Assembly: GCF_030296775.1 (NCBI RefSeq)
Contig: NZ_AP027742.1
Span: forward strand, 682,001 to 746,000
DNA from: Claveliimonas bilis
GTDB lineage: Bacteria; Bacillota; Clostridia; Lachnospirales; Lachnospiraceae
Length of the DNA: 64,000 nt
Reading direction: 5' to 3'
Part shown: in pieces, positions 41,638 through 56,185 of the stretch
How positions within the stretch are numbered: the stretch's first letter is position 1
Layout of the letters: each line of letters starts with the position of its first letter
Made by a program: the position numbers and the translations under genes
The notes under the pieces: model-generated
Seen by the model: only the letters and a program-made list of their open reading frames with translations
The model's database searches: none
Told to the model about the DNA's origin: nothing

Positions 41638-43212
41638 ATGCTGACAAAAACAAAAATGCAGGAAATACAGGATTTAAAACTGCAAGGTTACACAAAAGCT
41701 GATATTATCAGATACTATGAAGCGCAGGGACGCAAGCCTCCCAGCCGGCCCACAATCAGCAAGTATTATGACATGGATGTGCTCCCGGATGATCCCGGCG
41801 CTAAGCTCGCAAAACCGAAAACCTTTGATGCGGAACCTTTCCGCAGTACGATTATCAGGATCCTTGAAACAAACAGCGGAAAAACGTTCTGTATGTCATC
41901 AGTTTACGATGTTCTGGAAGAAAAATTCATCGAAAACGGAGACTATGAGAAACTTCCCGGGAACCAACAGACGCTCCGGAACTACATCCATTATCTTGAG
42001 GATTCCGGACAGATCAACAGGGAGCCTGAGCACCGCCGTATCTATGATTATGTTTTTGACACCCCGCCCGGAGAACAGATGCTGATTGACTTCGGTGAGG
42101 AGACTCTCTCAAAAACAACGCATATCCATTTCATGTGCCTTTTGCTGCGTTATAGCCGTTTTTTATGCGTCTATGCACAGGATCACAAGTATAACTCGGA
42201 AGAGGCCTGTAAGGCGATCTACCGTAGTTTCTGCAGGCTTGGAGGGCGTCCTAAAGAACTGGTCATTGACCAGGACGCCGTGTTTGTCGCCAGTGAAACC
42301 TATGGTGAAGTCATCAAGACCAGGACCTTTGAAGATTTCTGTACTGAACAGGATATCCGGCTCTGGGTGTGTAATAAAGCGGATCCGGAAAGCAAGGGAC
42401 CTATCGAAAACTCTGTCGGGTTCGTGAAGAAAAACTTCTTCAGTGCGCGGAAGGTCACCTGTATCGATGATGTATGGCGTTCCCTGCCCGGATGGCTGGA
42501 ACGCAAGAACCAGCGGATCCACCGTTCTACCTTACGGGTCCCAAAAGCAGTCTACGACAGCATTGAAAGGTCAGCCATGCGGCCTCTTCTTCCATCCGTG
42601 TATGAAACATCTCCGAATACATTCCGCACTTATGAAATCGCGGCAATACCTTACGTCCTGTATAAATCATGCAGGTATTCGGTTCCACGTGATTATGCTT
42701 TCAAAACGGTACAGTTCAAAGTTGTCAGTGGGAAGATCCACATTTATGATGACCAGCTGAACTATATCTGTTCCCATAATCTCAGCGAGAGGAAGGGAAG
42801 TGTTAATCAGCTCCCGGAACACCGGAAACAGGACTCCGGAGACTGGATCGAGATCATGGAGCGTCTCCGTGGGAAATGGAACTGCTATGACTTCCAGCAC
42901 TTCATCAATGGTGTGAAAAAGGAAAATCCACGGCATATCTCCAAACAGCTTCGGGCAATTGAACAGTTCCTTGATTCTGAGAATCCGGATAAATCCCTGG
43001 TAGCGCAGGTGATGAAGGAATGCTGCCAGAAATACCGGTATCAGTTCTCACAGTTTAAAGTTGTTTACAGTCTTGCAAAAGCCGGCCGGGAACTGACCAC
43101 AGACGACTGCCGTGCCCAGGTTCCATCCGGCAGTGTCAGCTACACGGATCTTTCTGTTTATGCAAAAGCCTTTCAGGAACGCACAGAAAGGAAGGAGGCT
43201 GCTGCTCGATGA
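41638..43212 (+). CDS. istA: IS21-family transposase IstA
   Basis: The 524-residue protein has an N-terminal HTH (GYTKADIIRYYEAQGRKPPS), a second DNA-binding region and a DDE core: Asp in MLIDFGEE, Asp in ELVIDQDAVF and Glu in GPIENSVGFVKK. A C-terminal beta domain follows. All catalytic residues are present. An AGGAGA site precedes the ATG. Its stop overlaps the istB start (GATGAA), as usual for IS21. Confidence 0.93.
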   Translation: MLTKTKMQEIQDLKLQGYTKADIIRYYEAQGRKPPSRPTISKYYDMDVLPDDPGAKLAKPKTFDAEPFRSTIIRILETNSGKTFCMSSVYDVLEEKFIENGDYEKLPGNQQTLRNYIHYLEDSGQINREPEHRRIYDYVFDTPPGEQMLIDFGEETLSKTTHIHFMCLLLRYSRFLCVYAQDHKYNSEEACKAIYRSFCRLGGRPKELVIDQDAVFVASETYGEVIKTRTFEDFCTEQDIRLWVCNKADPESKGPIENSVGFVKKNFFSARKVTCIDDVWRSLPGWLERKNQRIHRSTLRVPKAVYDSIERSAMRPLLPSVYETSPNTFRTYEIAAIPYVLYKSCRYSVPRDYAFKTVQFKVVSGKIHIYDDQLNYICSHNLSERKGSVNQLPEHRKQDSGDWIEIMERLRGKWNCYDFQHFINGVKKENPRHISKQLRAIEQFLDSENPDKSLVAQVMKECCQKYRYQFSQFKVVYSLAKAGRELTTDDCRAQVPSGSVSYTDLSVYAKAFQERTERKEAAAR

Positions 43213-44012
43213 ACCGTGAAATCTTAAAAAGTATGGATACCGGCCATATCCCTGTACAGCGGCTCACAGCGTTGCTCGAAACATTTACCTTAAAGCACGC
43301 GGCGCGCATGCTTCCGGATCTTCTGGAAACTGCGGATCTGCAGGACTCCTCCTGCAGGGAATTTCTTCTGGCCGTTCTTGAGACCGAAGTCAAAGGGCGG
43401 AATGAACGGCGTCGGAAGCGTAACTATTCCGCGGCGCATTTTCCACCAAATATCCGGCCGCTGGAAGAGTTTGATCCGGAAGAGCTGGAGTCAGGTATCA
43501 CCCACGCACAGCTCTCCGTTTTGAAAGAACTGTCCTGGCTGGACAACTGCGGAAACCTTGTCTTTGCGGGGCCTCCGGGCCTCGGCAAGACCATGGTTGC
43601 CTGTGGCCTTGGTCTGCAGGCTGTCAACAGCGGCTATACTGTATGTTTTGAGAAGATGACCAGTCTGATCAAGATCCTTGATACCGCAGAGACAGAGCGT
43701 GCAGCCGGATTCCGGCTCAAAAATATCAAGAAAGCACAGCTTGTCATAATTGATGAGATCGGCTACACACCGATCAGCCGCGGACAGGCAAACAGATTTT
43801 TCACATTTATCAGTGATACCTATGAAACCAGTTCTATCATCTTTACCACCAACAAAGAGATCGTTGACTGGGCTGAGATGATGGGGGATCCGGTACTTAC
43901 CACTGCAATGCTGGATCGGATCCTGCACCATGCCAAGTGTTACTCTTTCCGCGGGGAATCGTACCGGCTGAAGCACCCTGACCTTTACCCACAGGGAGAA
44001 ACAGGGATGTAA
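43209..44012 (+). CDS. istB: IS21-family helper ATPase IstB
   Basis: The 267-residue AAA+ ATPase has Walker A GPPGLGKT, Walker B LVIIDEIG and sensor-like IIFTTNKE. IstB recruits IstA and selects the target. The frame is intact and overlaps istA by four bases. Confidence 0.93.
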   Translation: MNREILKSMDTGHIPVQRLTALLETFTLKHAARMLPDLLETADLQDSSCREFLLAVLETEVKGRNERRRKRNYSAAHFPPNIRPLEEFDPEELESGITHAQLSVLKELSWLDNCGNLVFAGPPGLGKTMVACGLGLQAVNSGYTVCFEKMTSLIKILDTAETERAAGFRLKNIKKAQLVIIDEIGYTPISRGQANRFFTFISDTYETSSIIFTTNKEIVDWAEMMGDPVLTTAMLDRILHHAKCYSFRGESYRLKHPDLYPQGETGM

Positions 44013-44146
44013 AAAACTGCTTACCGGGTAAAGTAAAAAAGTGCTTACCTTACGATGTAAAAATCTGCTTACTAAGGGATGTAAAAAACTCCTTACCATA
44101 CGGTGTAAAAAACATCTTACCTAACAATGTAAAAAAGTGGTTGACA
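44008..44146 (+). repeat. IS21 right-end array: six sites at 24 bp spacing
   Basis: TGTAAAAAACTGCTTACC-like units start at 44008, 44032, 44056, 44080, 44104 and 44128. The first overlaps the istB stop. The array could be mistaken for a CRISPR but the units diverge and the spacing is six bases. Confidence 0.82.
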
Positions 44147-45282
44147 TTTGCAGATTGAGACGCTCAATCGTGTTATTGGTCCGAATCCGGCTCCAATGCT
44201 GTGTGGGAAAATCCATATAGGTCAAGGTTTCCTCAATTCCATCCTCCACCTTTTTGGCGGCTTTGGCAAGCTTCATAGACTGGAGTTTTTCCGATATCTG
44301 GAGCGCTTTTTCACGAGCAGCTTCTTTACTCTCCTGTGCATGGATTGCCTTGAGCATAAGAGCTACCGCTTTCATCTTGTTACGAGGTGTGACAGAAAAT
44401 ATATTTCTGTAAAAATGAACCGTACAACGTTGATATCTGGCATCTGGAAAGACTTCCGGAATGGTTTCAAGCATGCCAAGATTTTTATCGCCAATGATCA
44501 AACGTACACCAGTAAGCCCGCGTTCTTTCAGCCACACGAAGAAAGAACGCCAGCTTTCACGATCCTCTTTCATACCTTCCGCAGCGCCAAGGATTTCACG
44601 GCAGCCATCCTGACTGACTCCAATAGCAACGAGGATGGAAACATTCTGGATTTCACCGCCCCAGCTGCGTTTCAAGTAGACACCATCTACGTAAACATAG
44701 GGGTAGTCCCCGGAAAGCGGACGGGTACGCCAGGTTTCGATATGCTCATAAGCCTTTTTATTCAGGTTACTGATGGTGCCAGGAGAGACTTTCGTTCCCC
44801 ATAAGGCTTCGGTGATATCCTCCACACGGCGGACGGAAACACCTGCCAGATACATTTCGATCAGAGCTTCTTCCACGGAGGATTCTCTGCGGCGATATCT
44901 TTCAATGATTGCAGTTTCAAAAGGAATGCCTTTGAGTTTTGGAACTTTCAGCTCCACTTCCCCAGCGGTAGTATGGAGATTCCGCTTATAATGACCGGAA
45001 CGATATCCCTGACGATTAGAGGAACGCTCATACTTTTCAGCGTTGACTAATTCGTCAGCTTCCTTATCGAGCAGGGCGTTTAAAGTTTCTTCGACACTGT
45101 TACGGACAAGATCCTTTAAATCGTGCTTTATTAAGTCCTCATTTAGTTGTATAATCTTATCAGACATGGTTCGATAGCCTCCTTTGATAGATTTGGTTGT
45201 GGTGACTTAATTTTACCAAACGGCTATAGACCATGTCTATTTTTATGAAATTGATTTTGCGAAATTAATTATACGTTATCCT

Positions 45283-46016: not shown

Positions 46017-46081
46017 ATGACTGCCATAATGAACCTATCAAAAGAAAACAGCTTTTGAAATTTGCAAAAAGGAGCAGACAA

Positions 46082-46507
46082 ATGATGAATGATTTACAGA
46101 AAAAAACATGGAAGGGAATTATTAAGAAAGGAGTTGTGTTTTGTACAATTGGTGTAATGGCCATGGGTATGGTAGCATGCCAGGGAAAAGATAAGAAAGC
46201 GGATTCTCCCGCTTCAAAAACAGAGCAGTCAACGGATAAGAAGACGGATACAAAGGACAATAAAAGTACTAACAAGAGTTCTTCTTCCAAATCCAAAAAG
46301 AAAGAGAAGACAGATGCAGCTAAGAAACAGAATTCCGCCGAAAAGGATCAGAAAAAGACAACGGATTCTGATAAAAAAGACAGCACAGATAAAAAAGATA
46401 CTACAGAAAAGAAGGCCGAGAAGAAGAATACTACCAAAAAGGATACTACGAAGAAGAGCACAAAGAATAATAACAGTACACAAAATTCCAAAAAAACAGT
46501 TCAGTAA
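46082..46507 (+). CDS. Lys/Thr/Ser-rich lipoprotein, low complexity (141 aa)
   Basis: AAGGAG precedes ATG 46082. A signal peptide with lipobox GMVAC gives a lipid-anchored Cys near residue 32. The rest is almost only Lys, Thr, Ser, Asp, Glu and Asn in short repeats (TTEKKAEKKNTTKKDTTKKS). Such a highly basic, disordered exterior tether could bind anionic wall polymer. It lies directly upstream of the Dlt-like operon, behind a candidate response-regulator site. Confidence 0.65.
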   Translation: MMNDLQKKTWKGIIKKGVVFCTIGVMAMGMVACQGKDKKADSPASKTEQSTDKKTDTKDNKSTNKSSSSKSKKKEKTDAAKKQNSAEKDQKKTTDSDKKDSTDKKDTTEKKAEKKNTTKKDTTKKSTKNNNSTQNSKKTVQ

Positions 46508-46584: not shown

Positions 46585-48093
46585 ATGTGGAATATTCTGG
46601 AATATTTAGAAAAAACGGAAATGATGTATCCCCATCATACGGCAGTCGATGATGGAAAGTTTGTATTTACGTGGAGGGAACTGGGGGAAATATCCCGAAA
46701 AATGGGTACAGCATTTGCAAAAAGGATCTCCCCAGGGAAACCGGTGGCTATTCTGGCGGAGAAAAGAGCCATTACACTGGCGGCTATGTTTGGAAGTATA
46801 TATGCAGGAGGGTTTTATGTAGTGATCGATCCTTCGCAGCCGGCAAAGAGAATACAAGAAATTTTAAACGTACTGGAACCGGAGCTTATTGTAATCAATG
46901 AAACAACCGAAGAAATATTAAAGCAGACAGATTATAAGGGAGATACTTATCGGATAGAAATTGGTATGTTGGAGAGGGAAGACTGGGAATTACTGCGGGG
47001 AATACGGGAACGTAGTAAAGATACGGATATATTGTATGGAATCTTTACTTCTGGTTCTACCGGAACTCCGAAAGGGATTGTGGTAAGCCACCGGGCGGCT
47101 ATAGATTTTATTTCCCATTTTGTACGGATATTTGATTTTACAGTATATGACAAAATTGGCAATCAGGCGCCATTTGACTTTGATGTTTCGGTAAAAGACA
47201 TTTATACGAGTATGTTTACTGGAGCAACATTAGTTCTCCTTCCAAAGGAAATATTTTCTACCCCTCCGGTTTTACTGGATTATCTGTGTGAAAAAGAAGT
47301 GACTGTCCTTATATGGGCGGTATCGGCGCTTAGCCTTGTAGCGGTATTAAAAGGACTTTCTTATAAAATTCCCCATACAGTAAAGAAGATACTTTTCAGT
47401 GGCGAGGTTATGCCGGTGAAGCAGCTTCGAATGTGGCAGTCGGCCCTGCCTTGGGCAGAATTTGTTAATCTGTATGGTCCTACAGAAGTTACCTGTAATT
47501 GCACATACTATCGAGTGGAAGAAATGATTCCGGATGGAGAGAAAATTCCTATCGGCAGAGCATTTCCAGGCAGAAAAGTATTTCTTTTGGATGGAAATGA
47601 AAAAGAAATCACGGCTTTTGGGGAAACCGGGGAAATTTGTGTTTCCGGTGAATCCTTGTCAGAAGGATATTACCATAATGCAGAGGAAACAAAGAAAAAG
47701 TTTATACTCTATCCAAAGAATGAAGAAGGGCAGAGCCGATGCTATAAAACCGGCGATTTGGGTTATTACGGGAAAGATGGGGAACTTTATTTTTCCGGAC
47801 GAAAAGACTTCCAGATCAAACATATGGGACATAGGATCGAGTTGGAAGAGATTGAATGTGTAATGGAACAAATCAGCGGACTGGACAGAGCAGTATGCTT
47901 AATGGATGAAAAAAGAAACCGGCTGGTAGCATTTTATCTGGGGAACATCAATACGGATGAGATCAAAGAGAAGATGAAGCACAAACTTCCGGTCTATATG
48001 ATTCCCCATAAAATTGTAAAAACGGATTCAATGCCGCTAAACAAAAACGGGAAAACGGATCGGAGCTTTTTCCGGCAGAAATTGGGGGAATGA
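46585..48093 (+). CDS. DltA-like amino acid:carrier-protein ligase
   Basis: This 502-residue adenylate-forming enzyme has the A3 loop TSGSTGTPKG, YGPTEVTC, the YKTGDLG motif and the terminal catalytic lysine in PLNKNGKTDR. Length and motifs fit DltA-type ligases, which load an amino acid onto a DltC-type carrier. The amino acid cannot be named from sequence; the PLP decarboxylase next door argues against plain D-alanine. GAAAGGA precedes the ATG. It is the first gene of a tightly packed ten-gene operon. Confidence 0.83.
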   Translation: MWNILEYLEKTEMMYPHHTAVDDGKFVFTWRELGEISRKMGTAFAKRISPGKPVAILAEKRAITLAAMFGSIYAGGFYVVIDPSQPAKRIQEILNVLEPELIVINETTEEILKQTDYKGDTYRIEIGMLEREDWELLRGIRERSKDTDILYGIFTSGSTGTPKGIVVSHRAAIDFISHFVRIFDFTVYDKIGNQAPFDFDVSVKDIYTSMFTGATLVLLPKEIFSTPPVLLDYLCEKEVTVLIWAVSALSLVAVLKGLSYKIPHTVKKILFSGEVMPVKQLRMWQSALPWAEFVNLYGPTEVTCNCTYYRVEEMIPDGEKIPIGRAFPGRKVFLLDGNEKEITAFGETGEICVSGESLSEGYYHNAEETKKKFILYPKNEEGQSRCYKTGDLGYYGKDGELYFSGRKDFQIKHMGHRIELEEIECVMEQISGLDRAVCLMDEKRNRLVAFYLGNINTDEIKEKMKHKLPVYMIPHKIVKTDSMPLNKNGKTDRSFFRQKLGE

Positions 48094-48094
48094 A

Positions 48095-49309
48095 ATGGAC
48101 AAAAAAATATTAGAACAAGGAATTGCCAAATATGGTACGCCGCTTTATGTATTTAATATAGATGAAATGCAAGAATCGGCAGAGCTTTTTCGACAAAAAC
48201 TGCAGGGGAGTGCCGATATCTGTTTTGCTATGAAAGCGAATCCGTTTCTGACAAAGCAAATGGCAGAAGTAGTTGACAGGATTGAAGTTTGTTCTATGGG
48301 AGAATTTGAAATTTGCCGGAAACTAGGAATCGATGCTAAGAAAATACTGATATCAGGTGTACTGAAGAAAAAAGAAGATATTCTTGAAATTCTTACTTAT
48401 TATCGGGGCGGTTGTTTTTATACCGTTGAATCACCGGATCAATTTCAGATATTTAAGGAATGGTGCAAGGAAAACAAAGAAGAAATCCAAGTATATCTTA
48501 GACTGACAAGTGGGAATCAGTTTGGAATGGATGAAAAGGGGATATGGAAGATGATTTCTATAAGGCACCAATGTCCATTCCTTAGAATCAGGGGAATTCA
48601 TTATTTTTCAGGGACGCAGAAAAAGACCATGGAGAAGGTGAAGAAGGAATTGGAATATCTGGACAGCTTCTTAAGAGAGGTGGAAGCATCCGGATTGCCG
48701 ATAGAAGAGTTGGAATATGGTCCCGGAATTTCTGTCTCATACTTTCAGGGTCATAAGGACATGTTAGGAGAAGATATCAGCATAATGGCAGACGCCATCC
48801 GGAATATGAAATGGCGTGGAAATATTGTGTTGGAAATGGGACGTGCCCTTGCAGCAAAATGCGGGTATTATCTGACCAGCGTAAAAGATATAAAGCAAAA
48901 TAATGGGAAGAATTATTGCATCGTGGACGGCGGAATCCATCAGATTAATTATGACGGACAGATCAAAGGAATGTATTGCCCCAATTTTCAGGTAAGTCCA
49001 GGGGACGAAGGCGGCTCTAAGCAGGAATACATTGTATGCGGGTCTTTATGTACGATAAATGACATATTGATGCAAAAAGCAGAAATTGCAGGGCTGCAAG
49101 TGGGAAGTGTATTGATTTTTGAGCGGGCTGGTGCCTATGCAATGACGGAGGGCATGGCCCTTTTCTTAAGTCATGAATTGCCGCAGATTGCACTTTATAG
49201 CAGGGAAACGGGATGGAAATTGGTAAGGACCAAATATGAAACATACGAGTGGAATATGGAAAAGGAGAGTTATAATGGAAACTTTAATGAATATTTTAAT
49301 GGAAATTGA
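48095..49309 (+). CDS. BtrK-like fold-III PLP decarboxylase
   Basis: The 404-residue enzyme resembles diaminopimelate decarboxylase: YGTPLYVFNIDEM, the Schiff-base lysine in CFAMKANP, HYFSGTQ, YGPGISVSY and EMGRALAAKCGYYL. In the second-subunit motif it has GSLCTINDIL instead of the CES-D pattern of LysA, and GAYAMTEGMALFLSHELPQ near the end. This is the pattern I recall for BtrK-type enzymes, which decarboxylate an amino acid while it is bound to an acyl carrier. Placement between ligase and carrier genes supports that role. The likely reaction is aminoacyl-carrier to amine-bearing acyl-carrier plus CO2. Confidence 0.75.
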   Translation: MDKKILEQGIAKYGTPLYVFNIDEMQESAELFRQKLQGSADICFAMKANPFLTKQMAEVVDRIEVCSMGEFEICRKLGIDAKKILISGVLKKKEDILEILTYYRGGCFYTVESPDQFQIFKEWCKENKEEIQVYLRLTSGNQFGMDEKGIWKMISIRHQCPFLRIRGIHYFSGTQKKTMEKVKKELEYLDSFLREVEASGLPIEELEYGPGISVSYFQGHKDMLGEDISIMADAIRNMKWRGNIVLEMGRALAAKCGYYLTSVKDIKQNNGKNYCIVDGGIHQINYDGQIKGMYCPNFQVSPGDEGGSKQEYIVCGSLCTINDILMQKAEIAGLQVGSVLIFERAGAYAMTEGMALFLSHELPQIALYSRETGWKLVRTKYETYEWNMEKESYNGNFNEYFNGN

Positions 49310-49502
49310 TGACAGTATTGATTGGAAAAATGAAAGCGCATTGATTGATAGCAAGATTCTGGATTCATTTGGTGTTATTTCTCTTATATCAGAACTGGAA
49401 GATGCATTTGATATTGAAATAGAAGCTTCAGAGATGCGTCCTGAAAATCTTAATTCGGTAAATGCTATATGGGATATGGTGCAGAGATTGAAGGAGAATT
49501 GA
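49275..49502 (+). CDS. DltC-like carrier protein
   Basis: The 75-residue acidic protein has the phosphopantetheine attachment serine in KILDSFGVISL, matching the DSFG motif of DltC. AAAGGAG precedes ATG 49275. It overlaps the decarboxylase gene by 35 bases and ends one base before the MBOAT gene. It should carry the activated amino-acyl or amine-acyl group. Confidence 0.85.
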   Translation: METLMNILMEIDDSIDWKNESALIDSKILDSFGVISLISELEDAFDIEIEASEMRPENLNSVNAIWDMVQRLKEN

Positions 49503-49503
49503 T

Positions 49504-51093
49504 ATGGCATATCATACGTCAATATATTTATTCCTCTTTCTTCCAGCGGTACTTCTTGCTTATCAACTGACGCCGGAAAAGGTACGGTGGGTAACTTTGG
49601 TACTTTCCGGTTATATATTTTTCTGGAGCATCAGTGGAAAATTGGTTCTCTATCTAATAGGAACAACATTAGTTACCCACTATATAGGCGTATGGATATC
49701 TTCAGTAAAACTTGAATGTAAAATAGCTGTATCAGAAGCGCCGGGAGAAGAGCGTAATCAGATAAAGAAACAGTATAAAAGGCGGGAGAAAATGATACTG
49801 GCAGGAGGTATTATCCTGCTGTTATCGGCGTTGCTTTATCTCAAATATTATAATTTCTTTGCACAAAATGTGAATCGTGTGCTTGAGACAGCAGGAAGTG
49901 AGTTCGCACTGCAGGCAAAAGTGCTCATTCTTCCAATAGGGATTTCCTTTTATACATTACAGGCCATTGGATATATGGTAGATGTTTATTGGGGGAAAAT
50001 CAATGGCTTGGAGCAGCCTCCGGGGAAAATTGCTTTGTTTCTGGGGTTCTTTCCGCAGATTATGGAAGGTCCGATCAGTATGTATTCCCAGACGGCAGAT
50101 AGGCTATGGGAAGGAAATCCTCTTAAAGGAGAGAACCTGTCCAAAGGAAGTGTCAGGATTTTGTGGGGACTGTTTAAGAAGATGATCATTGCTGACCGGC
50201 TCTTTATATTGGTACAGGCGGTTTTTGAGCATTATGAAAACTATCATGGCGTTATGATTGCAGTTGCGGCAGTAGCTTATACAGTGCAGCTCTATATGGA
50301 ATTTTCGGGCTGTATGGATATCATCATTGGGAGCGGCAGGATGTTTGGAGTGGTTCTTCCGGAAAATTTTTGTCAGCCTTTTGCTTCCAGAAATGCGGCG
50401 GAGTTTTGGCGGAGATGGCACATTACACTGGGAGTGTGGTTCAAAACTTACATTTTTTATCCAGTGTCCGTATCGGTGCTTGTAAAGAAATGGAATAAAT
50501 TTGGAAAAGCCCATTTAGGTAAATACATAACAAAACTGGGTGTTTCAGCCTTTTGTCTGTTTCCGGTTTGGCTGTGTAACGGCCTATGGCATGGTGCTAA
50601 ATGGAGTTACATTTTTTATGGAATGTACTATTTTACTATTCTTCTTGCAGGAATTGCATTGGAACCGGTACGAATGAAAACAGTGAGGCTATTGCATCTT
50701 AATGAACAGGCTTTTTATTATCGAACGATGCAGATCATGAAAACATGGGTCATCATTTTTACCGGGGAATTATTTTTCAGGGCAAATGGTCTGCGTGCAG
50801 GAGTTCGGATGTTTCGAAGCATGTTCCAGAATTTTGAGGTACAGAGATTATGGGATGGGACATTGTTGAATTTAGGGCTGGATAAGGCAGATTATATGGC
50901 CATCCTGATAGGTTGCATAGTTGTAGCTGTAGTTGGAATCATAAAAGAAAAGAATTTGCTGGAGGAAGGAATGGGGAAATTACATCTTCCAGTCAGATGG
51001 GCGATTTATTACGCGCTTATTTTGGCTATTATAATTTTTGGAGCTTATGGAATTGGATATCAGCAGGTGGATATGATTTATGCAGGATTTTAA
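49504..51093 (+). CDS. MBOAT family acyltransferase (DltB/AlgI-like)
   Basis: The 529-residue polytopic protein has the MBOAT landmarks EFWRRWHITLGVWFKTYIF, the FFPQIMEGPI segment and the catalytic histidine in CNGLWHGAKWSY. DltB-type MBOATs pass a group from the carrier protein across the membrane to a surface polymer. Here the donor would be the DltC-like protein from the gene just upstream. Its 3' end overlaps the SGNH gene by 14 bases. Confidence 0.88.
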   Translation: MAYHTSIYLFLFLPAVLLAYQLTPEKVRWVTLVLSGYIFFWSISGKLVLYLIGTTLVTHYIGVWISSVKLECKIAVSEAPGEERNQIKKQYKRREKMILAGGIILLLSALLYLKYYNFFAQNVNRVLETAGSEFALQAKVLILPIGISFYTLQAIGYMVDVYWGKINGLEQPPGKIALFLGFFPQIMEGPISMYSQTADRLWEGNPLKGENLSKGSVRILWGLFKKMIIADRLFILVQAVFEHYENYHGVMIAVAAVAYTVQLYMEFSGCMDIIIGSGRMFGVVLPENFCQPFASRNAAEFWRRWHITLGVWFKTYIFYPVSVSVLVKKWNKFGKAHLGKYITKLGVSAFCLFPVWLCNGLWHGAKWSYIFYGMYYFTILLAGIALEPVRMKTVRLLHLNEQAFYYRTMQIMKTWVIIFTGELFFRANGLRAGVRMFRSMFQNFEVQRLWDGTLLNLGLDKADYMAILIGCIVVAVVGIIKEKNLLEEGMGKLHLPVRWAIYYALILAIIIFGAYGIGYQQVDMIYAGF

Positions 51094-52087
51094 AAGCATT
51101 GGAAAAAGAGTGGCAAAAACCATTGTGTTTTTTGCAATTTTAATTGGGATTTTAATGGGCGTATCAGAAAAAATAGAACAGGCATTTATTGAAAATGATA
51201 ATCTCGTACATAGCAGAAATAAAAGTATTTTTCGGATTTTGAGGGAACCAAGAGACAGTATTGATGTGATTGTAGTGGGGGACAGCCTAAGTTATTCAGC
51301 CATATCTCCACTGGAACTATGGAAGGATCAAGGGATTACAGCTTATGTATGTGGGCAGCCAGGGCAGAGGATACAGGAAACGTACCATGTTCTTGAAACT
51401 GCTTTTGCATCACAGTCCCCTAAACTGGTTATTCTGGAAACTAATACCATGTTTCGGGGAGCCATGGAAAATGGCCTGACGAACCTGAAAGAAAACCTGG
51501 AAGAGTGGGGGACTCATTATATTTCGGTTTTTAGAGGACATGATATCTGGAAATCTTTCGTAATAGATAAAGAGTATCCGGAAGAAAATTATAAAGGATT
51601 TGCTTTCCGATGTGCTGTACAGCCATATGAAAAAGGTGCATATATGTTTGAAACAGAACAGAAAGTGCAGATGCCGGATGCAGTAATAGAATATATGGAA
51701 AGTATTATAAAATTGTGCGAGAAAAACAGGACAAAATTGCTCCTTGTCAGTACACCATCACCATTGAACTACAATTATTCAAGACATAACAGTATTGCGG
51801 CTTATGCGAAAGAACATGATTTGGAATATCTGGATATGAATTTAAAACTTGAAGAAGTAGGAACAGATTGGGCAACCGACAGTTTAGATAAGGGGGATCA
51901 CTTGAATTTGTCAGGTGCAAAGAAAGTGTCACAATATCTTGGAGAATATTTAAGTACACGGTATGATCTTCCTGATCGGAGGAATGAAAAAAGATATGTG
52001 GGATGGCAGAAGGCAGAAAAAGATTATATAGAAAAATCAGAAGCGCATTTGAAAGAGATGAATATAAATGAGAAGAAAGCGAATTGA
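51080..52087 (+). CDS. Membrane-anchored SGNH-type protein (DltD-like role)
   Basis: The 335-residue protein has one N-terminal hydrophobic helix (TIVFFAILIGILMGV) and an extracellular SGNH-like domain: Ser in VVGDSLSYS, Asn in ETNTMF, and Asp/His in KGDHLNLSG. It is not close to classical DltD but occupies the dltD place in the operon. The expected role is the outer-face transfer or proofreading step of the polymer modification. Confidence 0.75.
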   Translation: MQDFKSIGKRVAKTIVFFAILIGILMGVSEKIEQAFIENDNLVHSRNKSIFRILREPRDSIDVIVVGDSLSYSAISPLELWKDQGITAYVCGQPGQRIQETYHVLETAFASQSPKLVILETNTMFRGAMENGLTNLKENLEEWGTHYISVFRGHDIWKSFVIDKEYPEENYKGFAFRCAVQPYEKGAYMFETEQKVQMPDAVIEYMESIIKLCEKNRTKLLLVSTPSPLNYNYSRHNSIAAYAKEHDLEYLDMNLKLEEVGTDWATDSLDKGDHLNLSGAKKVSQYLGEYLSTRYDLPDRRNEKRYVGWQKAEKDYIEKSEAHLKEMNINEKKAN

Positions 52088-52655
52088 AGAATGGGGAAAA
52101 GGCATGACAGGAATGCTTCTTCTCATATGTTTAGTGCTTTGTGCATTGCTGTTTAAAGCATATCTGGACGGAAAGTTCCATTCAGTAGAAACTCTACGTG
52201 AGTATGTAGCCGGGTTTGGCATAATGGCGCCGCTGGTACTGACAGCCATTCAGGCAGCACAGGTAGTACTGCCTGTACTTCCGGGATTTTTCGGATGCAT
52301 TGTGGGAGCAGTTATGTTTGGATGGATGGGAGGATTTTGGTGCAACTACATTGGAATCAGTTTAGGCTCTCTTGCTGCATTTTTATTGGCGCGGAGATAT
52401 GGACAAGGGCTGGTTACTCATTTGTTTCCAGGAGAACGCTATCAGAAGTGGGCAAACTGGGCGGCTAAAAGTAAATCCTATACCACCATTCTGTTGCTTG
52501 GTATGATATTACCCTTGTTTCCGGATGATTATTTTTGCTATTTTACTGGAGTTACAAATATGAGCACCAGAAAATTTACAACAATTATTATTTTGGGAAA
52601 ACCCTGGTGCATATTAGCTTATAGCCTTATATTTTCTGGCGTCATTACTATTTAA
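52068..52655 (+). CDS. TVP38/TMEM64 (VTT/DedA) family membrane protein
   Basis: The 195-residue protein has about five hydrophobic segments and the VTT signature region: LPVLPGFFGCIVGAVMFG, then LGSLAAFLLARRYG and a LPLFPDDYFCYFTGV re-entrant loop. VTT/DedA proteins are linked to lipid scrambling and undecaprenyl-phosphate recycling. Next to phospholipid synthesis genes, a lipid-distribution role is likely. It overlaps the SGNH gene by 20 bases. Confidence 0.82.
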   Translation: MRRKRIEEWGKGMTGMLLLICLVLCALLFKAYLDGKFHSVETLREYVAGFGIMAPLVLTAIQAAQVVLPVLPGFFGCIVGAVMFGWMGGFWCNYIGISLGSLAAFLLARRYGQGLVTHLFPGERYQKWANWAAKSKSYTTILLLGMILPLFPDDYFCYFTGVTNMSTRKFTTIIILGKPWCILAYSLIFSGVITI

Positions 52656-52698: not shown

Positions 52699-53337
52699 AT
52701 GGAAGAAAGAAAAAAGATATGCGGGTACTATGATTATACGGTTATCCTCACCTATATAGGCATATTTATAGGCTTTACAGGAATTGTGTTCATTATGGAA
52801 GGAAAATACAGAGAGGCATCCATCTGTCTGATGATTTCAGGAATGTGTGATATGTTTGATGGGACCGTTGCATCAACAAAGCAAAGAAATAGACGAGAAA
52901 AACGATTTGGGATCCAGATCGATTCCCTTAGTGATCTGATCTGTTTTGGGGTACTTCCTGCATTGTTCGTGTATAGCATCAGCGGCAAGAATTACATGGC
53001 TTTTTTTGTATCCGGTTTTTATGTATTATCTGCACTGATTCGGTTGGCATATTTTAATGTAATGGAAGAGGAAAGGCAGGAAATAGAAGGAGGAAAGCGG
53101 ACATGGTATCTGGGACTTCCAGTGACTGCCGCTGCAATTTTTATTCCAGCTTGTTATGTGATACAAAGTGAACTGGACTGCACGGCAGTGATGCAGATAG
53201 CGCTTATTATGATGGCTGTGGCATTTGTACTGCCTTTTAAAATAAAAAAGCCATATATGGCGGGGAAAATAGGGATTTTATTTACGGGAATCATAGAATT
53301 TGCTATTTTATTATTAGGATTGGGATTAGACGTATGA
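52699..53337 (+). CDS. pssA: CDP-diacylglycerol-serine O-phosphatidyltransferase
   Basis: The 212-residue multi-helix enzyme has the CDP-alcohol phosphotransferase motif DGTVAS...FGIQIDSLSD. The spacing before FG is slightly longer than usual and the common Arg after Ala is Ser. It should make phosphatidylserine from CDP-diacylglycerol and serine. The four-base overlap with the psd gene supports the pathway PS to PE. Confidence 0.83.
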   Translation: MEERKKICGYYDYTVILTYIGIFIGFTGIVFIMEGKYREASICLMISGMCDMFDGTVASTKQRNRREKRFGIQIDSLSDLICFGVLPALFVYSISGKNYMAFFVSGFYVLSALIRLAYFNVMEEERQEIEGGKRTWYLGLPVTAAAIFIPACYVIQSELDCTAVMQIALIMMAVAFVLPFKIKKPYMAGKIGILFTGIIEFAILLLGLGLDV

Positions 53338-54179
53338 ATAGAGATACCTTACTGATCCGATTTTTATACCACACAGTTCCGGGAAGAAGTATTTTAAAAA
53401 TAGTGGTACAGCCACGGGTGTCGAAGAAAGTAGGAGTATTTCTCAATTCCCGGATTTCCAGGTGGCTTATCCCTTTGTTTGTAAGGAGAAACCGGATTAA
53501 TTTACAGGAATATGAAAAAAAGAGATACGAGTCTTTCAATGATTTTTTTATACGTAAGCGATGCGTAGAGCAAATCGATATTACACCAGGACATTTGATT
53601 AGTCCATGTGATGGATTTTTAAGTATATATCCTGTTGACAAGGATAGTATTTATCGAATAAAGCATATAGAATATAATTTGATACAATTGCTTAAAGACA
53701 AGGAATTAGCAGAACATTTCAAAGGAGGCAAGTGCTTGATATTTCGGCTGACCCCTAAACATTATCATAGATACTGCTATATTTGTAATGGTTCAAGAAA
53801 AAGAGTTAGGAAGATAGAAGGGAAGCTCCATTGCGTGCGTCCAGTTGCTTATACATCCGTTCCAGTTTTTTTGGAAAATAGCCGGGAGCATACAGAAATA
53901 CAAGCAGACTATTTTGGACGTGTGGTACAAATGGAGATTGGAGCGCTTCTCGTTGGGAAAATTCATAACTATCCAGGAGAAACTAAAATAGTACAAGGAC
54001 AAGAAAAAGGTTATTTTGAGTTTGGGGGATCTACGATTGTGGTATTGTTAGAGAAAAACCGAATAGAAATTGAAAAAATAATACAGGATCAGTTCCGTCG
54101 AAAACAAGAAATAGAAGTTCATATGGGAGAAAAGATAGGAAGTTTTCTAGAAGAAGGGGGGAAGCCAGGAAATGAATAA
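53334..54179 (+). CDS. psd: Phosphatidylserine decarboxylase proenzyme
   Basis: The 281-residue proenzyme contains SFNDFFIRK, the Asp in SPCDGFLS, the His in TPKHYHRY and the self-cleavage motif FGGST near residue 233. Cleavage there creates the pyruvoyl cofactor. It converts phosphatidylserine into phosphatidylethanolamine at the membrane. Length fits the shorter Firmicute type. It overlaps the response regulator by eight bases, tying lipid synthesis to the two-component system. Confidence 0.88.
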   Translation: MNRDTLLIRFLYHTVPGRSILKIVVQPRVSKKVGVFLNSRISRWLIPLFVRRNRINLQEYEKKRYESFNDFFIRKRCVEQIDITPGHLISPCDGFLSIYPVDKDSIYRIKHIEYNLIQLLKDKELAEHFKGGKCLIFRLTPKHYHRYCYICNGSRKRVRKIEGKLHCVRPVAYTSVPVFLENSREHTEIQADYFGRVVQMEIGALLVGKIHNYPGETKIVQGQEKGYFEFGGSTIVVLLEKNRIEIEKIIQDQFRRKQEIEVHMGEKIGSFLEEGGKPGNE

Positions 54180-54888
54180 AGAGCGAGTATTGATAGTGGA
54201 AGATGATGCGGATATTCGAGAAGGGATTCGTATTTTATTAGAGAGTGAAAATTATAAAGTCATAGAGGCAGAAAATGGAAGAAAAGGACTGGAACTCCTG
54301 GATGAGAATATAGATCTGGTGATATTAGATATTATGATGCCAGGTATGTCCGGATTAAGGACTTGTGAAGAAATTCGTAAGATTTCCAATGTTCCTGTAT
54401 TGTTTCTTACAGCAAAAGCACAGGAATCAGACAAATTGATTGGTTTAATAGCAGGTGGAGATGACTATTTGCCAAAACCATTTTCCTATGCCGAGCTTCT
54501 AGGAAGGGTAAAGGCACTGATGAGACGTTACAACATTTATATGGGAAGGAATGGGGGAAAGACAGAAAAAGAGGAGCCTTATCTGGAAATCCAAGGTATT
54601 CGGATACATGAATCATTTAATGAGGTGTATGTGAATGGTGTGGAAAAAGAGATGTCAGATATTGAATATAATATGCTTCTTCTTATGATGCGTCATCCAA
54701 AAAAAATATTTTCTGCACAGAATATTTATGAAAATGTGTGGAATGAGCCATATTTTTATTCCTGTAACAGTACTGTTATGGTACATATTCGAAAACTTAG
54801 GGTAAAGGTAGAAGAGGATCCAAAGTTTCCAAAGTACATTAAAACCGTATGGGGAAAGGGGTATAAGTTTGACGTGGGAAACGAATAG
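54172..54888 (+). CDS. OmpR-family response regulator
   Basis: The 238-residue protein has an N-terminal receiver (EDDADI; phospho-acceptor Asp in LVILDIMMPG; Thr/Lys in LFLTAKA and PKPFSY) and a C-terminal winged helix (VWNEPYFYSCNSTVMVHIRK; GKGYKF). It is the last-but-one gene of the Dlt-like operon and pairs with the kinase that follows. A likely target is the tandem TTTAGAATT site at 45978. Confidence 0.92.
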   Translation: MNKERVLIVEDDADIREGIRILLESENYKVIEAENGRKGLELLDENIDLVILDIMMPGMSGLRTCEEIRKISNVPVLFLTAKAQESDKLIGLIAGGDDYLPKPFSYAELLGRVKALMRRYNIYMGRNGGKTEKEEPYLEIQGIRIHESFNEVYVNGVEKEMSDIEYNMLLLMMRHPKKIFSAQNIYENVWNEPYFYSCNSTVMVHIRKLRVKVEEDPKFPKYIKTVWGKGYKFDVGNE

Positions 54889-56185
54889 GAGAAATTCAAT
54901 TTATACACAGCTTTTACGTTTATTGCTTATTGCAACATTTGGGGCAGTAGTTATATTTTTTGTTTTTGATTTTACCGGAGAGTATGTGATTGAACGTTAT
55001 TTACAAGAGACAGATTATATTGAAAAGAAAAATCAAGAATATGTAGACGATCTTCAGGAATATGTAAATCAAGAGCAGATTGCTACCAGAGACACACACA
55101 AATTAAATGAATGGGTAAAAAAACAGCAGTTATTGTTTATTCAGGTATATAAAGACGATATACAGGTATATAACTCTGAATATCCGGGCGAGGAAATATG
55201 GGAAGAAGAGATTACAGTAGAAGGCTATGCATGGGAAAGCTACTATCAGGTTAATTTTGCAGATGGAACAGCAGAAGTTACGATTACGGGAGCTTACACC
55301 TATCAGCTTTATAATTATGTTATAATAGGAGAGCTGGGTATCTCATTTATATTTTTTCTTGTATTTGTTCTTCTGGGAATTCGAAAAAAAATAGATTATA
55401 TACGAAAACTTAGTGAAGAGATTGAGCTTTTAGAGGGAGGAAGTCTGGAATATAAGATTACGATAAAGGGAAAAGATGAGCTGACCGCATTAGCGGAGGG
55501 ATTGGACAGTATGAGGATTTCTTTTCGAAATCTTATTCGGCAAGAAGCCGAAATGACACAAGAAAATCAGAGAATCGTAACGGAAATGTCTCATGATTTA
55601 AGAACTCCTGTAACATCCATAATGTTGTATACAGAAATTTTAAAACAAGGGAAATACAAAAGTAAAGAGCAGCTTTTTGCATATCTAAATAAGATAGAAC
55701 AAAAAGCCAAACGAATGAAGCAGTTGACAGATCACCTTTTTGAGTATTCCATAATTGCCGGGGAGAGAGAAATTGAACTGGAGGAGTTGGAGCAGTATGA
55801 AGTTTTATTTTATGATCTGTTTTCTGATACTTGTAGTTATTTGGAACAGCAAGGGTTTCGGGTCATATTTCAGGTTAAATGGATAGATGGTCTGCTGCGG
55901 ATTTCAACAGATTATATTATGCGAATTTTGGATAATGTGACATCGAATATTGAAAAATATGCGGATCGTTCTGAACCAGTGAAAATTTGTTCAGTGGAAG
56001 AAGGAAGTATGGCTGGATTTTTCTTTGAAAACAAGATTCGGAATTTGGAAGAAAAACCAGAGAGCACTGGCATTGGAATACAGAATATAAAAAACATGAT
56101 GCAAAAAATGGGGGGTAAATGTATTGTAGAAGAAAAGGAAGGATACTTTCGATTAATTTTATTGTTCCCTTGTGTAGAAAAGTAA
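54869..56185 (+). CDS. Sensor histidine kinase
   Basis: TTG start behind GGGGAAAGGGG, overlapping the response-regulator gene by 20 bases. The protein has two transmembrane helices (about 15-37 and 150-172) enclosing a ~110-residue outside domain rich in Glu, Asp and Tyr. A HAMP-like linker, the phospho-acceptor His in EMSHDLRTPVTS and a HATPase domain (LDNVTSNIEKYA; STGIGIQNIKNMM) follow. An acidic outer domain suits sensing of cationic peptides or metal ions; this is inference. Confidence 0.88.
   Translation: MTWETNRRNSIYTQLLRLLLIATFGAVVIFFVFDFTGEYVIERYLQETDYIEKKNQEYVDDLQEYVNQEQIATRDTHKLNEWVKKQQLLFIQVYKDDIQVYNSEYPGEEIWEEEITVEGYAWESYYQVNFADGTAEVTITGAYTYQLYNYVIIGELGISFIFFLVFVLLGIRKKIDYIRKLSEEIELLEGGSLEYKITIKGKDELTALAEGLDSMRISFRNLIRQEAEMTQENQRIVTEMSHDLRTPVTSIMLYTEILKQGKYKSKEQLFAYLNKIEQKAKRMKQLTDHLFEYSIIAGEREIELEELEQYEVLFYDLFSDTCSYLEQQGFRVIFQVKWIDGLLRISTDYIMRILDNVTSNIEKYADRSEPVKICSVEEGSMAGFFFENKIRNLEEKPESTGIGIQNIKNMMQKMGGKCIVEEKEGYFRLILLFPCVEK

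Follow-up and report, generated by a model that had tools for sequence, protein, structure and literature searches.

A Dlt-like operon of Claveliimonas bilis proposed to combine surface aminoacylation with decarboxylation on a carrier protein

Why should an operon that resembles the Dlt pathway contain an amino acid decarboxylase? The question is raised by a five-gene core on the forward strand at positions 46585–52087 of a 64-kb stretch (the window, to which all positions refer unless a locus is named) of the 3.11-Mb single-contig genome of Claveliimonas bilis, a gut bacterium of the Lachnospiraceae. An initial annotation of the window had proposed that the operon loads an amino acid onto a carrier, removes its carboxyl group there and exports an amine to the cell surface. 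In outline this was found to be the best explanation, and both the Dlt-like chassis and a decarboxylase of the BtrK kind were supported at the sequence level. We regard the operon as a variant of the Dlt type with new elements, in which decarboxylation on the carrier would deliver beta-alanyl or gamma-aminobutyryl (GABA) groups to a surface polymer, and give this reading a probability of roughly 0.6. It is based on the gene set, its conservation, its motifs and the loss of LysA determinants, from which we infer the substrate, the on-carrier timing, the acceptor polymer and the charge. The features of the core are the following (scores are given against the curated cut-off).

46585..48093, forward strand: DltA-like adenylating amino acid-carrier ligase with a distinct pocket (AMP-binding domain PF00501, 3.6e-62; two DltA models, 303/559.85 and 312/476 bits)
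48095..49309, forward strand: pyridoxal 5'-phosphate (PLP) decarboxylase of the alanine racemase fold, BtrK-like by motifs and by its best solved match (BtrK, 2j66/7ru7; LysA model, 168/298 bits)
49275..49502, forward strand: carrier protein of 75 amino acids with LDSFG motif, start codon ATG at 49275 (PF00550 slightly below cut-off; DltC model, 38.9/68 bits)
49504..51093, forward strand: DltB-like MBOAT O-acyltransferase of 529 amino acids (PF03062 above cut-off; DltB model, 135.5/375 bits)
51073..51090, forward strand: acyl-shuttle motif MIYAGF at the C-terminus of the MBOAT protein, with Tyr526
51080..52087, forward strand: membrane-anchored SGNH-like protein of 335 amino acids (alignment of 20 relatives)

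All five genes were found at the positions annotated before, and every junction was either a 1-bp gap (ligase/decarboxylase and carrier/MBOAT) or an overlap (35 bp for decarboxylase/carrier and 14 bp for MBOAT/SGNH-like). The DSFG motif noted for the carrier was also present, as LDSFG with the phosphopantetheine site Ser31, and was kept across relatives. The description as a Dlt-like chassis held as well, with matches to DltA, DltB and DltC below the cut-offs, a Tyr for acyl shuttling and an SGNH-like partner.

The decarboxylase was present in 88 of 397 Lachnospiraceae genomes (protein search, E<=1e-40), about one fifth, and was rarer outside the family: in the phylum it was found in 4 of 398 genomes (E<=1e-60), two of which were not Lachnospiraceae, and both of these also contained ligase, carrier and MBOAT. 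The decarboxylase in the window shared 98% identity with its counterpart in Claveliimonas bilis c-25. For the neighborhood comparison, 41 loci were chosen by similarity of the decarboxylase alone, and a partner was counted when located on the same strand at a distance of up to 6 kb. Ligase and carrier were each found at 40 of the 41 loci, the sole locus without ligase being at a contig end, while MBOAT was found at 34 and SGNH at 24; the order ligase-decarboxylase-carrier-MBOAT was the leading one (25/41). As the loci were picked blind to their neighbors, the recurrent linkage to ligase and carrier shows that the grouping is not due to chance. An additional gene without a Pfam match was located between decarboxylase and carrier at two loci (L046:8365-9348, 327 amino acids; L052:8004-9026, 340 amino acids).

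The sequence GSLCTINDIL was read where LysA has GxxCExxD, as the initial annotation had reported, and the distinction from LysA drawn there was upheld. The residues identified were Lys47 (binding PLP), Cys319-Thr320, Asp323 and GAY at 346–348. The residue following the catalytic Cys was Thr in the operon enzymes and in BtrK (Ser in one operon enzyme), but Glu in LysA, and the CT-x-x-D, DGG and GTQ motifs were common to the operon decarboxylase and BtrK. A study of diaminopimelate (DAP) decarboxylase located this Glu at the carboxyl of DAP and found almost no activity left in the tested mutants of conserved residues, with one exception (PMC12599289). BtrK was the best solved match of the single sequence, ahead of DAP decarboxylases. 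With a profile of the family it scored 7.7e-60 compared to 1.7e-48 at best for solved DAP decarboxylases, and between these came structure 6knk, which is SbnH, an enzyme acting on a citryl-linked amino acid (PMC7857480). In a tree with long branches the operon decarboxylases formed one group (100/100) on the BtrK side of the branch that separated three LysAs (100/98).

A role as the LysA of lysine synthesis was ruled out, as the CE motif is lost, with CT in its place in an enzyme that missed the curated LysA cut-off, and a separate LysA was found in every genome: in 34 of 34 operon genomes another protein scored far higher with the LysA model, mostly slightly below cut-off. The better candidate of the Claveliimonas genome reached 277 bits, just below the cut-off, yet contained CE. 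The operon enzyme is thus probably of the kind that acts on carrier-bound amino acids. BtrK converts Glu on the carrier BtrI to GABA-BtrI (PMC7857480), and VinO decarboxylates 3-methylaspartate on the carrier VinL. Suspected ligase-decarboxylase fusions were shown to be decarboxylases fused to a membrane segment and to an extracellular region judged by eye to be transglutaminase-like (L069:5741-8560, 939 amino acids; L070:6713-10057, 1114 amino acids).

Which amino acid is loaded was assessed from the ligase pocket, mapped to the GrsA positions by core motifs; it reads DVKILSLCNK (D200, V201, K204, I243, L270, S272, L296, C304, N305, K490). The pattern D, V/I, K, variable, variable, S, L/V, C, N, K was shared by 37 of 40 operon ligases. 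Position 239, which is Lys204 here, was Lys in 39 of the 40 and Arg in the remaining one, and a position that is basic throughout suggests that the substrate is an acidic amino acid. Lys239 occurs in surfactin-type Glu domains and Arg239 in microcystin domains for side-chain-linked Glu or methyl-Asp, although we found no confirmation of either in the open literature. The pocket also resembles the serine code and thus looks small, so that Asp is slightly favored, at approximate odds that stay below even, while Glu and any other amino acid are each somewhat less likely, to a similar extent.

The pocket also speaks against plain D-alanine. DltA binds D-alanine with Leu236, Met239 and Cys301 (PMC11253843), and these are V, K and S in the operon ligase. 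A true DltA, in a genome that contains both systems (G152), showed the pocket DLMVLCTVAK and belongs to a dltA-B-C-D operon that scored above the curated cut-offs and is without the decarboxylase. Together with the cut-offs and the pocket, the contrast with this operon ruled out a canonical Dlt system in the window. DltA was detected at E<=1e-130 in 17 of the 397 Lachnospiraceae genomes (eight above cut-off), and five of these (G082, G090, G152, G366, and G388) also contained the new ligase motif, so that true Dlt and the new system are not mutually exclusive. Deviating codes were seen in the L069 and L070 ligases (DAKCAVLG(I/V)K) and in the L076:10455-12047 ligase (IARGCSQASK), which has lost Asp235 and is located beside a normal decarboxylase.

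In the proposed mechanism, the ligase would first adenylate an acidic amino acid and attach it to the carrier through the side chain (beta-carboxyl of Asp or gamma-carboxyl of Glu). Both groups on the alpha-carbon, amino and carboxyl, would stay free, and Lys204 would hold the free carboxylate. The decarboxylase would then strip the alpha-carboxyl to give a beta-alanyl- or GABA-carrier. PLP decarboxylases of this type require a free alpha-amino acid; if the ligase indeed recognizes a second carboxylate, the loaded substrate would keep one to lose, and that it is lost on the carrier we infer by analogy with BtrK and VinO. The MBOAT protein would pass the acyl group to Tyr526 in its own shuttle motif, and the SGNH-like protein would take it up on Ser69 and esterify an outer polymer, perhaps poly-glycerolphosphate, thereby adding a free amine.

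The last two steps are suggested by features of MBOAT-SGNH acyltransferases, of which the MBOAT His, the C-terminal Tyr motif and the SGNH Ser/Asp/His were all found by motif. The proposed catalytic residue of the MBOAT protein is His363 (in WHG), conserved in relatives, and no second MBOAT or canonical DltA was found in the Claveliimonas genome. In PatA, and in DltX for the Dlt system, the Tyr of a C-terminal FxYxxF motif bears the acyl group (PMC12148441). A corresponding xxYxx(F/Y) was present at the extreme C-terminus of 37 of 38 MBOAT relatives, most commonly as LIYAGF or FIYAQF, the exception being truncated by a contig end, and the first Phe was often substituted. An MBOAT protein with such a motif has the equivalent of DltX built in, and the function of DltX is thus probably fused to MBOAT. 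The same arrangement, with an SGNH partner, is found in peptidoglycan O-acetylation by PatA/PatB, which uses acetyl-CoA and has no ligase or carrier. The SGNH-like protein has GDS with Ser69 and DxGDHxN with D270 and H274 in the alignment of 20 relatives, 10 of which gave a weak GDSL match. The DltD family models (PF04914, TIGR04092) did not match the SGNH-like proteins, and we propose from these motifs that the protein acts as final transferase in the role of DltD, outside that family. Single-sequence AlphaFold models were of unusably low quality (mean pLDDT, the predicted local distance difference test, of 40 for the SGNH-like protein and 43 for MBOAT). In L067:11954-13012 and L069:11935-12972, the GDS of the SGNH-like protein was replaced by GDC, which puts Cys at the nucleophile position.

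Several findings weigh against this mechanism. A profile of the SGNH set gave only chance hits against solved structures, and the SGNH assignment is by motif. The operon is similar to the vicenistatin system VinN-VinO-VinL in having a stand-alone adenylating enzyme, a carrier and a PLP decarboxylase, there acting on a carrier-bound Asp derivative, but the vicenistatin product enters a polyketide, and the loop of VinN, one residue shorter and with K330/R331, was sought in the operon ligase and not found: there was no gap compared to the linear gramicidin synthetase LgrA, which was the best match among solved structures for the ligase, and Cys and Asn were located at 330/331. In length the loop agrees with ordinary alpha-amino acid domains, so that side-chain activation is unsupported by this feature. 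For the acceptor polymer, poly-glycerolphosphate is a possible candidate because two sulfatase-domain membrane proteins are encoded in the Claveliimonas genome, one of them a weak match to lipoteichoic acid synthase; in R. gnavus, also of the Lachnospiraceae, poly-glycerolphosphate chains were surmised from nuclear magnetic resonance (PMC12413058). Finally, a search of the 397 Lachnospiraceae genomes for sister operons used no criterion but the ligase pocket motif, without regard to the decarboxylase. The motif was found in 81 genomes, and about 70 of about 83 places adjoined a decarboxylase match (E<=1e-40), as judged by comparing two lists by eye; one further place was interrupted by the end of a contig. 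The 12 operons that were left contained carrier and MBOAT in all cases and this decarboxylase in none, which shows that the decarboxylase is not obligatory for the ligase.

All 12 sister ligases had the pocket DVK(I/V)(M/L)SLCNK. Six of the operons (L087, L090, L091, L092, L093, and L095) contained a formyltransferase (PF00551) with visible Asn-x-His and Asp motifs, which in five cases occupied the exact slot of the decarboxylase, between ligase and carrier, and in L087 came after the carrier. The other six (L086, L088, L089, L094, L096, and L097) had neither enzyme beside the ligase. In a quick ligase tree most of the 12 sisters grouped in one part and the type changed several times, a pattern expected of a swappable step. 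Linear gramicidin synthetase formylates a carrier-bound amino acid, and LgrA may serve as a model for the six formyltransferase-type operons, although it is a multidomain nonribosomal peptide synthetase whereas the sister operons encode separate proteins and an MBOAT. The tailoring step thus looks swappable, and the predicted charge with it. We tentatively propose, at somewhat less than even odds, a surface-aminoacylation chassis of Clostridia (acidic-amino-acid ligase, carrier, MBOAT, and SGNH-like protein) with interchangeable on-carrier tailoring enzymes. If so, the gene beside the ligase would decide in which of three charge states the one loaded amino acid is exported: as a cationic amine with the decarboxylase, as an anionic group when a formyltransferase caps the amine, and as a zwitterion with neither. 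If the loaded amino acid, rather than a sugar, is what the formyltransferase modifies, this enzyme and the decarboxylase would set opposite charges on the same group. The positive-charge modification put forward by the initial annotation would therefore hold for decarboxylase-type operons, and not for the 12 sisters, six of which have a formyltransferase.

Among other explanations, decarboxylation may come first, so that free beta-alanine or GABA is made, loaded via its only carboxyl and exported by MBOAT and SGNH. The surface product would be identical, and some enzymes of the fold use free amino acids, such as IdnL3 of incednine synthesis with free beta-glutamate. However, the basic residue at position 239 would then lack a second carboxylate to bind, BtrK as the closest solved enzyme works on a carrier-bound substrate, and the pocket is the same in operons without this decarboxylase; we consider this order of events unlikely. 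Slightly less likely again is that the decarboxylated group ends up in a secreted small molecule, or is passed by a different route to a lipid or glycan. BtrK and VinO both belong to natural product pathways, and at one locus (L061:6620-14257) a ligase-decarboxylase-carrier triad for which no MBOAT was found adjoins polysaccharide genes (aminotransferase, epimerase, and EpsG), but the frequent presence of MBOAT (34/41) and SGNH (24/41) corresponds to the pair described for acylation of envelope polymers (PMC12148441). Loading of meso-DAP by its L-center carboxyl and decarboxylation of its D-center on the carrier, giving a lysyl-carrier and a lysylated polymer, would agree with the kinship to LysA, the normal alpha-type loop of the ligase and the loss of distal-end DAP residues, which would fit a thioester there; it is improbable given a small-looking pocket without an acidic residue for the distal amine, and given that lysine itself comes from a separate LysA. 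A divergent ordinary D-alanine Dlt system, in which a decarboxylase of lysine or polyamine synthesis merely shares the operon, is very improbable, as the resemblance to DltA, DltB and DltC and the 12 sister operons without this decarboxylase are outweighed by the missed Dlt cut-offs, the changed D-alanine pocket residues, the decarboxylase linkage throughout Lachnospiraceae and beyond, and the separate LysA.

On-carrier decarboxylation followed by export would bring a different, positively charged group to the cell surface instead of D-alanine, and esters of beta-alanine or GABA would then decorate the cells of part of a dominant gut family. In Gram-positive bacteria, a less negative surface and resistance to cationic peptides are classically attributed to D-alanylation. 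We know of no report of beta-alanine or GABA surface esters, and nothing relevant was found in the open-access literature on beta-alanine or GABA on teichoic acid or on a decarboxylase in a Dlt system. In a survey of gut commensals, mostly Lachnospiraceae, none of the eight strains listed contained a complete dltABCD operon (PMC10877564); as all members of the present operon score below every Dlt cut-off, such a system could escape a survey of this type.

Compared to DltA-B-C-D with DltX, the operon has the same combination of ligase, carrier, MBOAT and SGNH-type membrane protein and a shuttle Tyr, but adds the decarboxylase, a changed pocket, a DltX motif fused to MBOAT and an SGNH protein that is not DltD. 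With BtrK and BtrI of butirosin synthesis it shares the closest solved decarboxylase relative, a small stand-alone carrier and CT-x-x-D, but BtrK serves an antibiotic; the butirosin system is not known to have MBOAT/SGNH export, and its ligase has another fold. The same pairing of enzymes is known from the exosortase-A-associated ligase and decarboxylase (TIGR03098 and TIGR03099), but the operon proteins scored below the cut-offs of these models (190/592 and 152/478 bits) and no exosortase was found among the annotated neighbors.

The same-strand run extends beyond the core to 56185 via overlaps or short gaps, and no strong terminator was found on the forward strand of the run up to that position. 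The following genes were assigned by Pfam and NCBIfam matches.

52068-52655, forward strand: VTT protein, overlapping the SGNH-like gene
52699-53337, forward strand: PssA
53334-54179, forward strand: Psd
54172-54888, forward strand: response regulator
54869-56185, forward strand: histidine kinase

This tail is probably co-transcribed with the core, yet it is outside the conserved part: among the 41 loci, VTT was found near the core at two, PssA at two, Psd at three and a response regulator at 12. Neighbors that would fit a control of envelope charge are PssA/Psd here, an LPG-synthase-type membrane protein and PAP2 in L064, and two-component systems. Immediately upstream of the ligase, a small Lys/Ser/Thr-rich protein with a lipoprotein-like start and without a Pfam match is encoded at 46055-46507. 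Further upstream, two transposase-type gene sets were detected at 41638-44012 and 44121-45167, which by eye appeared to be IS21-like (524 and 267 amino acids) and Mutator/IS256-like (348 amino acids, reverse strand).

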